DNA of 64,000 nucleotides from Teredinibacter purpureus (lineage in GTDB: Bacteria; Pseudomonadota; Gammaproteobacteria; Pseudomonadales; Cellvibrionaceae), in assembly GCF_014217335.1 (NCBI RefSeq), contig NZ_CP060092.1:2435501-2499500 (forward strand), in the 5' to 3' direction. Positions 1-16,586 of this stretch are shown piece by piece. The translations under genes were made by a program, and so were the position numbers. A model generated the notes under the pieces. It was given only the letters and a program-made list of their open reading frames with translations, was not told the origin of the DNA and searched no databases. The number at the start of each line of letters is the position of its first letter. Positions within the stretch are counted from its first letter, which is position 1.

Positions 1-33
1 CTGAATAATTGAGCGTAGATCATAGGGTAAGTA

Positions 34-47
34 TACTGTATAAATAG
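34..47. promoter_or_regulatory. left half of an SOS (LexA) box split by an IS
   Basis: TACTGT (34-39) followed by ATAAATAG (40-47). Removing the insertion sequence and one copy of the 8-bp duplication joins this to ACAGTT at 1387-1392 and restores TACTGTATAAATAGACAGTT. That fits the gammaproteobacterial LexA pattern CTGT-N8-ACAG. The flanking AGTATACT (32-39) also holds a -10-like TATACT on both strands, so the operator probably overlapped a promoter. The controlled gene is not evident. It may lie left of the window on the minus strand, because nothing convincing is coded just to the right. Confidence 0.7.
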
Positions 48-71
48 GGGTCTTCCCCTATTCAGGTGGCT
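48..71 (+). repeat. ISL3 left terminal inverted repeat
   Basis: Begins GGGTCTTCCCCTATTC and ends GGTGGCT. It matches the reverse complement of 1355-1378 at 22 of 24 positions, with differences at positions 4 and 17. Confidence 0.9.
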
Positions 72-132
72 TTCTAGCCTTTCCTAATAAACTCCCCTAG
101 AATCCCAGCCTTTTATTTCTTGGTTTTCAGTG

Positions 133-1356
133 ATGGACGAGCTTTCTCTTTACGAAAAAATATTATCAATCTCTTCTCCTTGGTTTGTCGAATCAGTTCA
201 GCTAGATGAGCGTGACAACACCGTTCACGTCCACGTTGAATACGATTGCGACAAACATTTAACCTGCCCTTTGTGTGAATCCAGATGTAGTCGCCATGAC
301 ACCAGAACAAGAACATGGCGCCATCTCGATAGCTGTCAATTTCGCACTCTCGTTCACGCGAATATCCCTCGCTCTAAATGTCGCACGCACGGTGTATTGC
401 AAGCTGATATCCCCTGGGCTGATAAGCGATCAAGTTTCACCTTGATGTTTGAGGCTTATGTAATCTCCTGGCTTCAAGAGGCGAGTATTAATGCCGTCAG
501 TAAGAAGCTGGCGCTTAGCTGGAATGCTGCCGATGGAATAATGAAGCGGGCTGTAGAGCGAGGCCTAAAAAGACGGTCTCATCTACATATTCAAAACCTA
601 GCTGTCGATGAGGTCTGCAGCAAAAAGGGACATGAATATGTGACCATTGTTTCTAATGATCATGGGCATGTAATAGATGTCCAAGAAGATCGCAAAAAAT
701 CGAGTTTAAACGCATTTTTTACAGGATTAAGTGACAAGCAAATCCAATCAGTTGAAACGATTAGTATGGATATGAGTCCGTCCTATATTTATGCCACCAA
801 AGAGTATATTCCTCACTGGGAAAGAGCGATATGTTTTGATAGGTTCCATGTTGCGATGGACTTAAATAAGGCTCTAAATAGTGTTCGTAAAAGTGAAGCC
901 AATATGGTCGCGCAACAACACAAGCTAGAGCTCCATAGATCGAAATTTGCATGGCTGAGATCACGTGAAAATCTAAAGGATATTCATTCTGTACAGATTT
1001 CAACATTAAGCGTTGTAGCAAAGAAGACTGCACGCGCATGGGCGATAAAGGAGTATGCCATGGAGCTCTGGAATTATGATGATCGTATATGGGCTGAAGA
1101 AGCTTGGAAGCAATGGTACAGCTGGGCGATAAGAAGCCGCCTCAATCCTATAAAATCGGTAGCTAAAAGCATAAAGAAGAATCTATGGGGGATAATAAAC
1201 GCCATCGTAAATAAAAAGAATAATGCTGGTGCAGAAAGTATAAATAGCAGAATAAAAATGCTAAAAGTAAAAGCGAAAGGTTTTAGGAATAAGGCCCGTT
1301 TTAAGGCTGCAATTTTATTTCATCTCGGCGGGCTGGACCTGATGCCAGAAATCTAG
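133..1356 (+). CDS. ISL3-family DDE transposase
   Basis: Transposase of about 407 residues that would cut and paste the flanking element. An N-terminal Cys/His cluster (CPLCESRC near residue 46, then a later C-x2-H) resembles the ISL3 zinc-binding region. The DDE core is visible as Asp in LAVDEVCSKKGH (about 159), Asp in SMDMSPSY (about 213) and Glu in NNAGAESINSRIK near residue 370. Length is normal for the family (about 400-440). A GTG at 130 lies one codon before the ATG at 133; no strong Shine-Dalgarno decides between them. The stop codon overlaps the right inverted repeat, as is common in compact IS elements. No frameshift is seen, so the gene is probably functional. Confidence 0.93.
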   Translation: MDELSLYEKILSISSPWFVESVQLDERDNTVHVHVEYDCDKHLTCPLCESRCSRHDTRTRTWRHLDSCQFRTLVHANIPRSKCRTHGVLQADIPWADKRSSFTLMFEAYVISWLQEASINAVSKKLALSWNAADGIMKRAVERGLKRRSHLHIQNLAVDEVCSKKGHEYVTIVSNDHGHVIDVQEDRKKSSLNAFFTGLSDKQIQSVETISMDMSPSYIYATKEYIPHWERAICFDRFHVAMDLNKALNSVRKSEANMVAQQHKLELHRSKFAWLRSRENLKDIHSVQISTLSVVAKKTARAWAIKEYAMELWNYDDRIWAEEAWKQWYSWAIRSRLNPIKSVAKSIKKNLWGIINAIVNKKNNAGAESINSRIKMLKVKAKGFRNKARFKAAILFHLGGLDLMPEI

Positions 1357-1378
1357 CCACCCGAATAGGGGAAGGCCC
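1355..1378 (-). repeat. ISL3 right terminal inverted repeat
   Basis: Read on the minus strand it begins GGGCCTTCCCCTATTC and ends GGTGGCT. It pairs with 48-71 and includes the last bases of the transposase stop codon. Confidence 0.9.
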
Positions 1379-1392
1379 ATAAATAGACAGTT
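1379..1392. promoter_or_regulatory. right copy of target duplication plus right half of split LexA box
   Basis: ATAAATAG (1379-1386) is the second copy of the target duplication. ACAGTT (1387-1392) is the distal half-site of the interrupted operator. Neither side of the IS now holds a complete CTGT-N8-ACAG site. Confidence 0.7.
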
Positions 1393-2028: not shown

Positions 2029-4755
2029 ATGCCTAATTTATTACGTCGTTGTTTATTTGTGGCGGTTACGCTGCTAGTAAGCAATTATTTGTATGCTGAA
2101 ACGGGGAACCCGCGCGTTAATCAGGTGGGGTATACACCGAATAGCGCGAAAATAGCGAGTTATAAAGCGAGTTCAAATACCGCTCAAACGTGGGAATTAC
2201 GCCAAAATGGTAACGTGGTCGCAAATGGCACCACCAACCCGCAAGGTGTAGACGCCGCTTCCGGCGACAATGTTCATCATATTAATTTCTCCTCTGCGAG
2301 TGTGACCGGTTCTGGTTTTACACTGCATGTAGGGGGTGATGAAAGTTACGCTTTCGACATAGCTGCGGATGCGTTTTCACCGATAATGTATGACGCTATT
2401 CGTTATTTTTACCATAACCGTTCAGGTATTGAAATTGAAACACAGTACACCGGTGGCGGTAACGGTAGTTACGCGGCTGATGCTCAGTGGGCTCGTCCTG
2501 CGGGCCATTTAAATCAAGGCTCTAACCAAGGTGACTTTGCCGTACCGTGTTGGGCAGATAGTGGTTGTAATTATGCCTTAGACGTAACCAAAGGTTGGTA
2601 TGACGCAGGGGATCACGGAAAATATGTCGTCAATGGCGGTATTTCTGTTTGGAAGTTACTTAATATGTACGAGCGCGCGTTACATATTAGCAATAGTGCG
2701 AATAAGTTTGCCGATGGTACGCTGAATATTCCAGAAAGTGGTAACGGTGTTGCCGATATTCTGGATGAAGCGCGTTGGCAAATGGAATTTATGATGGCTA
2801 TGCAGGTGCCCGAAGGCGAGAATAAAGCTGGAATGGTGCACCATAAAATGCATGATGTGGGCTGGACGGGTTTACCTCTAGCACCTCATGAAGATTCCAA
2901 TGAGCGAGCATTGGTGCCACCGAGCGTAACCGCCACCTTGAACGTTGCGGCGACAGGCGCTCAGTGTGCGCGTCTATTTGCTGAAATTGACGCAGCTTTT
3001 GCTAATGAGTGTTTAAGTGTTGCGCAAACGGCATGGAGCGCGGCAGAGCAAAACCCTAATGATGTTTATGAGGGTGGGTACGATAGCGGCGGCGGTGGTT
3101 ATGGTGATGCGAATGCAGCCGATGAGTTTTTCTGGGCTGCAGCAGAACTTTATCTCGCGACAGGTGATAGCCAGTACTTACCAACTATTAACAGTTACGA
3201 AGTGGTTTTGACCGATTGGGCATGGCCCGACACAGCCATTCCCGGCTTGATGTCGTTAGCAATAGTACCCGGTGCTAATACGGCTAGTTTACGCGACATG
3301 GCCCGTACCAAAATCATTGAAATTGCCGATTTACACGTGGCCACTATTAATTCGAACGGGTACATGGTGCCTTCTACGGATGAAGAATATTATTGGGGTT
3401 CCAATAATGTTGTTGCGAACAAAATGGCTTTAATTGCCTTGGCTTATGATTTTACTGGCAACGACAGTTACGCCAAAGCGTTTACACAAGCTATGGATTA
3501 CCTTTTTGGTAACAACACATTGTCATTTTCTTATATCTCTGGGCATGGTGAAGATGCCTTAACGCAGCCGCATCACCGCTTTTGGGCGGGCGCTTTAAGT
3601 AGCAGCTACCCATGGTTGCCGCCTGGCGCTTTATCGGGTGGCCCGAACGATGGGTTGGAAGATGACACTGCAGCTAGTGCGTTAGGTGGGTGCGAATCTA
3701 TACCGGCAAGTTGTTATATGGACAATATTGAATCGTGGTCGACCAATGAAATAACGATTAACTGGAACAGTGCTTTAGCGTGGGTGCTCGCGTTTTATGA
3801 TGATTACGCGAACCAAACGGGAACACCAACACCGGTACCCACAGCGACACCAACACCTACACCTACGGCAACACCAACACCTACACCTACGGCAACACCA
3901 ACACCTACGGCCACGCCGGTACCTACAGTGACACCCACACCAGTACCCTCGGTTACACCCACGGCTACGCCCACGCCAACGCCCACGCCAACGCCCGCAC
4001 CAACATCACCTCCAGGGCAGTGCGAAGAAGTGTGTCAGTGGTATCAAGATGACCCTAGACCGCTTTGTGAAAACCAAGACAGTGGCTGGGGATGGGAAAA
4101 TCAACAAAGCTGTATTGGCCGAACAACCTGTGAAGACCAAGGTGGTAGCGGTGGTGTTATAAGTGAGTGTGAATCTACACCCGTACCTACGGCTACGCCT
4201 ACACCCGTACCTACGGCTACGCCTACACCCGTACCTACGGCTACGCCTACACCCGTACCTACGGCTACGCCTACACCCGTACCCACGGCTACGCCTACAC
4301 CCGTACCTACGGCTACGCCTACACCCGTACCCACGGCTACGCCTACACCCACGGCTACGCCTACACCCACGGCTACGCCTACACCCACGGCTACGCCTAC
4401 ACCCACGGCTACGCCTACACCCACGGCTACGCCTACACCCGTACCCACGGCTACGCCTAATCTTGTTACGTGTTCTGTAAGTTATATGAATAGTTGGAGT
4501 AGTGGCTATCAGATTAATGTTGACGTCGAGAATGGCAGTAGTAGTGCTATTTCGTCTTGGACGTTAGAGCTTGATTTTGGTGAAGACCCACAGGTCACCG
4601 GCAGCTGGAACGTAAATGTTTCTGAGTCGGGTAATGTTGTGACTGCGTCAAATATTAGTTGGAATGGTAATGTCGGCGCGGGTCAAACGACTAGCTTCGG
4701 TATGCAGGGTAGTTCAGACGGTAATCTGTCAACGCCAACGTGTAGCGTATTATAA
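2029..4755 (+). CDS. secreted GH9 endoglucanase with CBM10 and CBM2
   Basis: Probable endo-1,4-beta-glucanase, exported by the Sec pathway (signal peptide residues 1-23, cut after LYA). Domains in order: N-terminal Ig-like CelD-type domain (about 27-112); GH9 (alpha/alpha)6 barrel (about 115-595) with the [11 protein letters not shown] motif near 189 carrying the catalytic-base Asp pair, PHHRFW, and the acid Glu in [12 protein letters not shown]; Pro/Thr linker; CBM10 (about 664-712, C-x3-C-x-W-Y and GWGWEN); a second Pro/Thr linker made of DNA-level repeats; C-terminal CBM2 (about 812-908). It is the only plus-strand hydrolase here, unlike the six-gene island at 33-48 kb. Start supported by AGGAGA 7 bases upstream. 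A strong terminator follows. Family assignment is secure; exact activity is inferred. Confidence 0.95.
4177..4458 (+). repeat. minisatellite encoding the second Pro/Thr linker of the GH9 enzyme
   Basis: Seven 24-bp units (encoding TPVPTATP), then five 18-bp units (encoding TPTATP), then one more 24-bp unit, in phase with codons. Copies differ only at scattered positions (cctacg versus cccacg). The 18-bp form equals the 24-bp form minus two codons, which suggests slippage or unequal recombination. Confidence 0.95.
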
Positions 4756-14858: not shown

Positions 14859-16586
14859 TTATAGTTTCGTAAATAAATAAAGCGCTGTTAACCAGCCCGC
14901 AGCGGCGACCAGTTTCCACGTTAACACTGGGTCGCGCTCTAACAGCGGCACTTCCTCTGGCGTTGTCCATTTCGTGTTGGGGCTACGCAGGTCTTTAACC
15001 CATTCCGATAGGGCAGAATAACGAGCGTTTGGTTGAATACTTAAAGCTTTTTCTAGTGCTTTATCGAGCCAAAAAGGTACCAGTGGATTGTGCTGTCGAG
15101 CAGGAATGTAGTTTAATTTTTGAAAGCTTTTTAAATCCTTCGCGTTGCTATAGGCTTCTCCATAAGGCTGTTTTTGGGTTAGCATTTCATAGAGTAAAAC
15201 AGCGAGAGAGAATTGATCTGATTTTTGTCCCACGGTACCGCCGTAACGATACTCAGGGGCGGAATAGTCTAGAGTACCTAAAATTGTGTCGCGCTGAAAC
15301 GGCGAGCCAATCTCGTGAATACCCGCGACCCAGCAGGAGCCAAAGTCAATTATCGTGGCGCCTTGAATTCCTACAACGATATTTCCCGGTTTAATATCTT
15401 GGTGTAAGGTATCTTTTCGGTGAAAGGCGCGAATACCTTTTACCATTTGCTCCAACAGTTCGATGGCATCGGTAATGGCAAAGGGAGCACGCTCTTTTAT
15501 TAATTGCTCTAAGGTTGGGCCGGCAACATGCTCTGTTAAATAGTACAGCGTTTTTCGGACATGCGGGGGCGTGACGACTCGAGCAACTTGTGGGTTTTGA
15601 ATGCGCGCGCCAATCCAAGATTCCATCACAAAACGTTCAATGTAAGCGGGGTCATCATCATAATTCACCGAAGGTGTTTTCATGACTAATGGTTTGCCAT
15701 CACTATTCTTAACTAAATAAACCTGACTTCTTTCCGATTCATGTAGAATTTTTTCAACGGTCATGCCATCAATCTTATTGCCGGCTTCCAGTAGGGGAGG
15801 GAATGGCAGCTTAGATAGTACATTGACGGCGTCGGCTTGAGAGGGTGTACCAATCGAAACAATCTTAACCGCCTGAACACTAATGTTATCTTTTGTCTCG
15901 TACTTTACTGCGAGCGCGGACAAGGTCTCCGTGATGGTTTCTGGAAAATCTTGGTGTTCTAATACCAGTTTTTTAAATTCTCGCGAGGGAATGGCATCGT
16001 GTATGCCGTCGGAGGTTAAAACAAACAGGTCGCCAGGTTCGATTTCCTCCATTTGCATGTCCACTTCAAGCGTTATGTCGGCACCTAGAGCGCGGCTTAA
16101 ATAGGTGGTGTCTTTATCGATACGTTGCGTGTGATCACGTGTTAACTGTTCGAGTTGGTTCTCTCTTACGCGGTAGATACGAGTGTCGCCAATATGAAAC
16201 GTGAAACTTTTATCGCCTTTTAAAATAAGTGCACTAAAGGTTGTAAGGTAGCCTTCGCCACGGACACTGTTTTGGCTTTGCCCCCACAAATATTGGTTAA
16301 GCGACCGAATAACCTGCATTGCCGACTGCTGCGTTCGCCAAGTGTCGGGCGTAGCATAATAGTCGGTTAGAAACCCCGTAATGGCTGATTGACTTGCTTG
16401 CCGTGCGGCGGAGCTACTGCTTACGCCGTCGGCTACGGCAATGGCGATACCTTTTGTCGCAAGCGTGGTTTGTTGATCGTTAGAAGGAATGCGAGCGCCG
16501 ACGGTATCTTGGTTTTCAGGCTTGTTGGGGCCTTTGTCACTGTATTGGGAGAGTGCAATTTTGAGGGACGATTTTAAGTGGTCCAC
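14859..16586 (-). CDS. PP2C phosphatase-Ser/Thr kinase fusion with C-terminal TM (copy 1)
   Basis: 575-residue bifunctional regulator. Residues about 10-243 are a PP2C phosphatase with metal-binding Asp at VADG (53), SDG (193) and KDN (233). Residues about 273-535 are a protein kinase with Lys303 (VMK), Glu322, HQDIKPGN (Asp397), IDFG (Asp414) and SAPEY. The ATP-binding glycine loop is degenerate. A single hydrophobic helix near 555-573 should anchor it in the inner membrane, with both domains cytoplasmic. Start is GTG at 16586 with AAGGAC just upstream. It lies directly after the NNP transporter. Similar kinase genes neighbour nitrate-assimilation genes in Pseudomonas (the PA1782 context), so a nitrogen role is likely. 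A paralogue lies at 19365. Confidence 0.92.
   Translation of the reverse strand: MDHLKSSLKIALSQYSDKGPNKPENQDTVGARIPSNDQQTTLATKGIAIAVADGVSSSSAARQASQSAITGFLTDYYATPDTWRTQQSAMQVIRSLNQYLWGQSQNSVRGEGYLTTFSALILKGDKSFTFHIGDTRIYRVRENQLEQLTRDHTQRIDKDTTYLSRALGADITLEVDMQMEEIEPGDLFVLTSDGIHDAIPSREFKKLVLEHQDFPETITETLSALAVKYETKDNISVQAVKIVSIGTPSQADAVNVLSKLPFPPLLEAGNKIDGMTVEKILHESERSQVYLVKNSDGKPLVMKTPSVNYDDDPAYIERFVMESWIGARIQNPQVARVVTPPHVRKTLYYLTEHVAGPTLEQLIKERAPFAITDAIELLEQMVKGIRAFHRKDTLHQDIKPGNIVVGIQGATIIDFGSCWVAGIHEIGSPFQRDTILGTLDYSAPEYRYGGTVGQKSDQFSLAVLLYEMLTQKQPYGEAYSNAKDLKSFQKLNYIPARQHNPLVPFWLDKALEKALSIQPNARYSALSEWVKDLRSPNTKWTTPEEVPLLERDPVLTWKLVAAAGWLTALYLFTKL

Follow-up and report, generated by a model that had tools for sequence, protein, structure and literature searches.

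An ISL3-family insertion sequence in the LexA operator of dnaE2 in Teredinibacter purpureus, and the use of LexA boxes as target sites by one branch of ISL3 transposases

We found that an ISL3-family insertion sequence (IS) close to the left end of the window, i.e., the whole analysed stretch of 64,000 nucleotides from Teredinibacter purpureus, has split a LexA operator that belonged to the error-prone polymerase gene dnaE2. The same site choice, at single-base register, is repeated across many genomes, at several operators and in both orientations, and it is restricted to one branch of ISL3 transposases. The reading that we favour, with a probability of about 0.72, is that of an ISL3 branch whose transposition complex itself selects LexA operators by reading DNA (operator mimicry). 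Two transposase subunits would each read one half of the palindrome CTGT-N8-ACAG, and the element would be joined at points 8 bp apart, just within the half-sites, so that the spacer would become the 8-bp target duplication and the operator would be split. An insertion of this kind would have split the dnaE2 operator at the window locus.

The element and the dnaE2 operator

A preliminary description of this DNA placed the element and its flanks at 34-1392, and that interval is correct, the IS proper occupying 48-1378. The features of the locus are as follows:

1-23, minus strand: first 23 bases of dnaE2, with the ATG at 23-21; the gene runs on left of the window
30-35, minus strand: TATACT, candidate -10 element of a putative dnaE2 promoter, on the gene's side of the IS
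36-39, no strand: CTGT, left half of the split LexA box; an intact box is in the same place in 7/7 congeners
40-47, no strand: target duplication ATAAATAG, left copy, the N8 of the box (read directly)
48-1378, plus strand: insertion sequence of the ISL3 family, 1331 bp, present as 8 full copies genome-wide
48-71, plus strand: left terminal inverted repeat (IRL GGGTCTTCCCCTATTCAGGTGGCT; read directly)
130-1356, plus strand: ISL3 transposase, 408 aa, GTG start as listed
1355-1378, minus strand: right terminal inverted repeat (IRR complement GGGCCTTCCCCTATTCGGGTGGCT; read directly)
1379-1386, no strand: target duplication ATAAATAG, right copy (read directly)
1387-1390, no strand: ACAG, right half of the split LexA box (read directly)
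2029-4755: gene right of the IS, encoding a secreted protein of 908 aa

IRL and the IRR complement are identical at 22 of 24 positions, with GGG at both ends; elements of the ISL3 family have terminal inverted repeats of about 15-40 bp that start with GG. The transposase carries the ISL3-type domain set (Zn ribbon, HTH, DDE), with Pfam matches to PF01610 (200.7 bits), PF13542 and PF14690, all above cut-off, and matches NCBIfam NF033550 at 292 bits (cut-off 180). A search for solved structures matching it by sequence returned none, and seven same-genus genomes yielded no copy of this IS. The two 8-bp duplications of the window copy are identical at 8/8 positions, and reading of 36-47 and 1379-1390 bore out the earlier claim that ATAAATAG is exactly the N8 of CTGT-N8-ACAG.

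The full dnaE2 gene (L175:6396-9524, 1042 aa) encodes an error-prone DNA polymerase (NCBIfam PRK05672.1, 1354 bits, cut-off 939). The split box ends 12 bp upstream of its start codon, and the sequence formerly past the box is now 1.3 kb from the gene. The right-hand flank of the IS matches congeners in 2/7, and there only inside the gene at 2029-4755, the product of which we take to resemble a family 9 cellulase whose proline-threonine linker is very long; therefore, the empty-site comparison proposed earlier was made via dnaE2. An intact CTGT-N8-ACAG was found with its start 28-31 bp upstream of dnaE2 in 7/7 same-genus genomes. Gammaproteobacterial LexA uses a CTGT-N8-ACAG box, and the split box has the properties of such an operator, standing before an SOS-type gene and being conserved in relatives. 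The host lexA gene has the box CTGTATATTAAAACAG 55 bp ahead of its start codon; thus, a LexA box of this type is in use in the genome of the window. Judging by the sequence, dnaE2 would have lost SOS/LexA control. Silencing may be the outcome as readily as derepression, and we lean toward a loss of SOS induction rather than constitutive expression.

Target sites of the element and its relatives

Across the 4,893,080 bases of the genome, there are 54 intact CTGT-N8-ACAG sites, compared to 29 for a reversed-pattern control. With 60 sites allowed, a random insertion would meet such a site with a probability of about 1.2e-5, and chance was rejected on this figure.

The preliminary description suggested comparing the target sites of all copies of the IS with CTGT-N8-ACAG. 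The expected context was present in five of the eight own copies, which are flanked exactly by CTGT and ACAG around 8 bp (L001, L003, L005, L006, L007), and was inexact in the rest: L002 has both CTGT and ACAG at a 9-bp spacing (one extra base), L008 has a single exact half-site, and L004 has neither. The duplications are identical at 8/8 positions in seven of the eight copies and at 7/8 in one (L005, with exact flanks). L001, L002, L005, L006 and L007 lie in copies of one repeat encoding a REP-tyrosine-transposase-like protein (NF047646, 40.7 bits, below the cut-off of 80; no Pfam match), where they occupy a box 25 bp ahead of that gene; in L001, L006 and L007, this box matches the lexA operator in all 16 letters. 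Of the five copies, two are inserted one way and three the other; unless one was flipped by gene conversion, at least two independent insertions must have hit this base. The repeat-box site was also found unoccupied, in three copies.

Relatives were collected by a contig scan, which gave nothing with a single protein and 79 loci with an alignment. The input to the end-finder comprised 150 loci (8 own, 6 plasmid, 19 from a genome search, 109 of 110 profile-scan loci, L153 being the one left out, and 8 E. coli regions). The end-finder located both ends in 96 loci and failed to do so in the other 54; together with 12 further E. coli regions, this gave 108 copies with ends. We excluded 33 of the 108 from the site count because their duplications matched at fewer than 7 of 8 positions, including L191 (in fimB), the ends of which are off by one.

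Inside the branch defined below, there are 46 distinct duplication-intact sites (58 copies). Exact CTGT-N8-ACAG flanks were found in 33 of the 46, and 6 more match at 7 of 8 letters (39/46 at 7-8); one exact half only is present at two sites (L002 in its register, L008), and neither half is exact at five (L004, L053, L085, L154 in fimB, and the decayed L155). Outside the branch, 16 distinct sites (17 copies) include no exact site, no site at 7 of 8 letters and no exact half. The difference is significant (Fisher p = 2.5e-7 for 33/46 vs 0/16 exact; 9.0e-10 for 39/46 vs 0/16 at 7-8), for collections in which the scan aimed at close relatives of the ISKox3 side, thereby enriching it, with an end-finder that favours copies with good ends, and with some distinct sites possibly sharing descent. 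The two-orientation hits, the intact operators of congeners and the outside-branch control are independent of these sampling choices. The target preference suspected earlier is therefore real, and it goes with one transposase branch.

The symmetrised consensus of the inside targets is TACTGTATATATATACAGTA, which we take to equal the E. coli LexA consensus. Flank information inside the branch is 1.26-1.71 bits at positions -4 to -1; outside, it is at most 0.14 bits at -4 to -2 and 0.38 at -1. These values bear on another account, chance or a plain preference for A/T-rich DNA, to which we give almost no weight. In its favour, A and T predominate in the spacer, and PMC5559704 reports 8-bp duplications rich in AT for an enterococcal ISL3 element. 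The flank letters at -4 to -2 contradict this account, and plain AT preference was rejected on flank information. AT-richness, from which the preliminary description had tentatively derived the preference, is too weak an explanation, as targets outside the branch have A/T cores without CTGT/ACAG.

A rough look at the 54 loci without both ends, kept out of all counts, found CTGT and ACAG at both ends in L017, L047, L138 and L145, and CTGT or ACAG at one end only in others. To the contrary, L139 has an end out of register, and L022 and L024, both with W at transposase residue 216 (see below), have clean duplications and no box.

ISKox3 has a match in 1635 of 5426 complete E. coli genomes, with at least 80% cover in 1272. 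From the 60 records listed out of 1997, 20 regions were picked for variety, non-randomly; 16 of these have exact sites, some of which recur across strains, one matches at 7 of 8 letters (L185, at dinJ-yafQ, dinJ presumably being an SOS gene), and three do not match, namely, two in fimB (L154, L191) and one decayed copy. The exact sites are:

before chromosomal umuDC: L156
before dinD: L160 and L188, in opposite orientations
before sbmC: L158, L192 and L194; L196 in the opposite orientation
before yoaA: L186
by plasmid umuD: L189, L190
by plasmid dinI-umuD: L159, L161, L195
by prophage-like genes: L157, L187, L193

Site recognition would be expected to give such entry into a single operator in either orientation with an unchanged register. 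The SOS gene table of PMC11002266 lists dinD, sbmC, umuC and yoaA.

Selection without targeting would have insertions land anywhere, those that split operators being kept as helpful or harmless. The hits ahead of dispensable or mobile genes (umuDC, dinD, sbmC, prophage, plasmid), and the lack of any hit before lexA or recA among the regions read, fit this account. However, operator loss would tolerate many positions in and around the box, and the register is base-identical in 33/46 distinct sites; in relatives outside the branch, the count is 0/16. We consider selection very improbable as the explanation.

The ISEc53-type copy within fimB (L154, L191) is an exception to the box rule. The RefSeq name for the fimB copies that we read is ISEc53; a fimB insertion in E. 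coli ST131 is named ISEc55 in PMC7671891.

In Candidatus Symbiopectobacterium endolongispinus (L051-L076), 2 of 19 both-ended copies have a duplication match of 7-8 of 8, and 15 of 38 ends adjoin an exact CTGT or ACAG. This pattern is consistent with copies that entered boxes and later recombined with one another, as in a genome undergoing shuffling.

The transposase branch and the reading of the site

The tree comprised 59 different transposases (L088 and L155, being too short, were omitted), and a box was defined as a match of 3 or more of the 4 letters on each side. By site type, there are 31 box rows, 27 rows without a box and 1 half. All 31 box rows fall on a single branch of 37, and the other 22 rows are all without a box; support for this branch (bootstrap 94, SH-aLRT 99) is slightly below the program's star. 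Within it, the own copies cluster with L122, L106 and L110 (8 rows, 100/99). Five rows of the branch have no box: the fimB copy, L085, and three copies from one symbiont with mismatched duplications. L085 (Oceanospirillaceae bacterium) has an 8-bp duplication that is itself a palindrome, CTGTACAG, as if the half-sites were read without a spacer.

Named gammaproteobacterial hosts are found on both sides of the split, Chromatocurvus being outside; in G518, of the same class as the host of the window, four copies have clean duplications but lack a box. The box trait therefore goes with the transposase and not with the host, and host-determined targeting was rejected. One record titled Chryseobacterium (L073) contains an ISKox3-like copy, and we take it as contamination because its left flank is the same as that of the Citrobacter record L046.

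Guidance by the LexA protein, with the transposase binding LexA or LexA-bent DNA and inserting at the operator, is an unlikely but more serious alternative. In its favour, the target consensus reproduces the LexA consensus in full, with the letters beyond CTGT/ACAG and the alternating spacer; the E. coli sites lie ahead of real SOS genes (table in PMC11002266); and every credible named host of a branch member is a gammaproteobacterium. Against it, the insertion is central in the operator, in a stretch that bound LexA should occupy, and half-sites or non-operator sites are also used (L008, the fimB coding sequence, L002 with 9 bp and L197 with 7 bp, the odd spacings of the last two possibly being later slips in A/T runs). 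We infer that the transposase is the reader, given that the trait follows it rather than the host, that the joining points should lie beneath a bound LexA dimer, and that half-sites are sometimes used. An extension of the operator-mimicry reading is tentative, and we hold it to be somewhat less probable than its negation: the transposase, mimicking the DNA reading of LexA, may compete with it for SOS operators, and insertion may be favoured when DNA damage clears LexA.

In alignment A2, the residues of 12 branch-assigned rows (L047 being placed by similarity only) and those of 16 others show no overlap at eight columns. Residue 216 of the window transposase, two past the conserved D214, is S or N in 12/12 branch rows and W in 16/16 others; it is a candidate target contact, or it may simply mark the clade. 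A later draw of 398 genomes gave four new loci, which agree with this pattern but are few: L197 (S216) has CTGT-ATAAAAAA-CAGT, a box one base shorter, L199 (N216) has no readable ends, and L200 and L201 (W216) have no box. S216 is also present in L023 and in the distant L037 and L040, the ends of which are unreadable, and thus S is not exclusive to the branch.

Among known elements, ISKox3, ISEc53 and ISCfr12 (Enterobacterales ISL3) have transposases 41-43% identical to that of the window and, like the window IS, have ends GGG.CTTCCC and 8-bp duplications. Copies of ISKox3 and ISEc53 sit in CTGT-N8-ACAG, as does the window IS; unlike the latter, ISEc53 has an additional ClbS/DfsB-like gene. 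ISL3 elements outside the branch, such as those of Chromatocurvus (L089/L090), Thiobacillus (L102) and G518, belong to the same family, with similar ends and 8-bp duplications, but have no CTGT/ACAG flanks in 16/16 distinct sites and have W216 in the 16/16 A2 rows counted outside the branch. Preferential insertion at a defined sequence, palindrome or recombination site is a property of Tn7, IS30, IS1397 and Tn5053/Tn402; to our knowledge, none of these site-selective elements targets the operator of a global repressor. In the literature searched, to which ISfinder and most subscription journals were external, and as far as the sources were accessible, we found no account of an ISL3 preference for LexA boxes and no description of ISKox3, ISEc53 or ISCfr12 targets as LexA operators. 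The accessible part of PMC9603328 presents a resistance plasmid with umuD beside ISKox3 and leaves the operator uncommented, and that of PMC12445084 deals with a different IS family and SOS induction.

SOS operators govern mutagenesis, prophage induction and many plasmid genes, so that a widespread IS branch homing on them would be a systematic source of SOS rewiring. The branch may use them as landing sites because plasmids and prophages carry many of them and the genes behind them are often dispensable. Operator targeting would also explain the ISKox3 copies by umuD on plasmids, and offers a simple model of a transposase and a repressor competing for one DNA word. If the competition with LexA is real, the spread of the IS would be tied to the SOS response, with repeated rewiring of mutagenesis genes (dnaE2, umuDC) and of SOS switches in prophages, in plasmids and in competing transposons.

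Other boxes

Two multi-copy families of REP-tyrosine-transposase-like genes in the genome of the window have CTGT-N8-ACAG boxes at their starts. One of these boxes is the lexA operator 16-mer, and one of the families is the main landing site of the IS; the families may be SOS-controlled mobile elements. Their genes with boxes are:

L178: 507-1525 and 3893-4894
L180: 1474-2478 and 5169-6173
L181: 1420-2424

The only other exact CTGT-N8-ACAG in the window, at 15533-15548, is unoccupied. It falls within a phosphatase/kinase-like open reading frame (14859-16586, minus strand) and is unlikely to be an SOS operator. Elsewhere, an integron integrase gene (L183:1206-2237; TIGR02249, 406.8 bits vs 265) has the unoccupied box CTGTATATATAAACAG just upstream.
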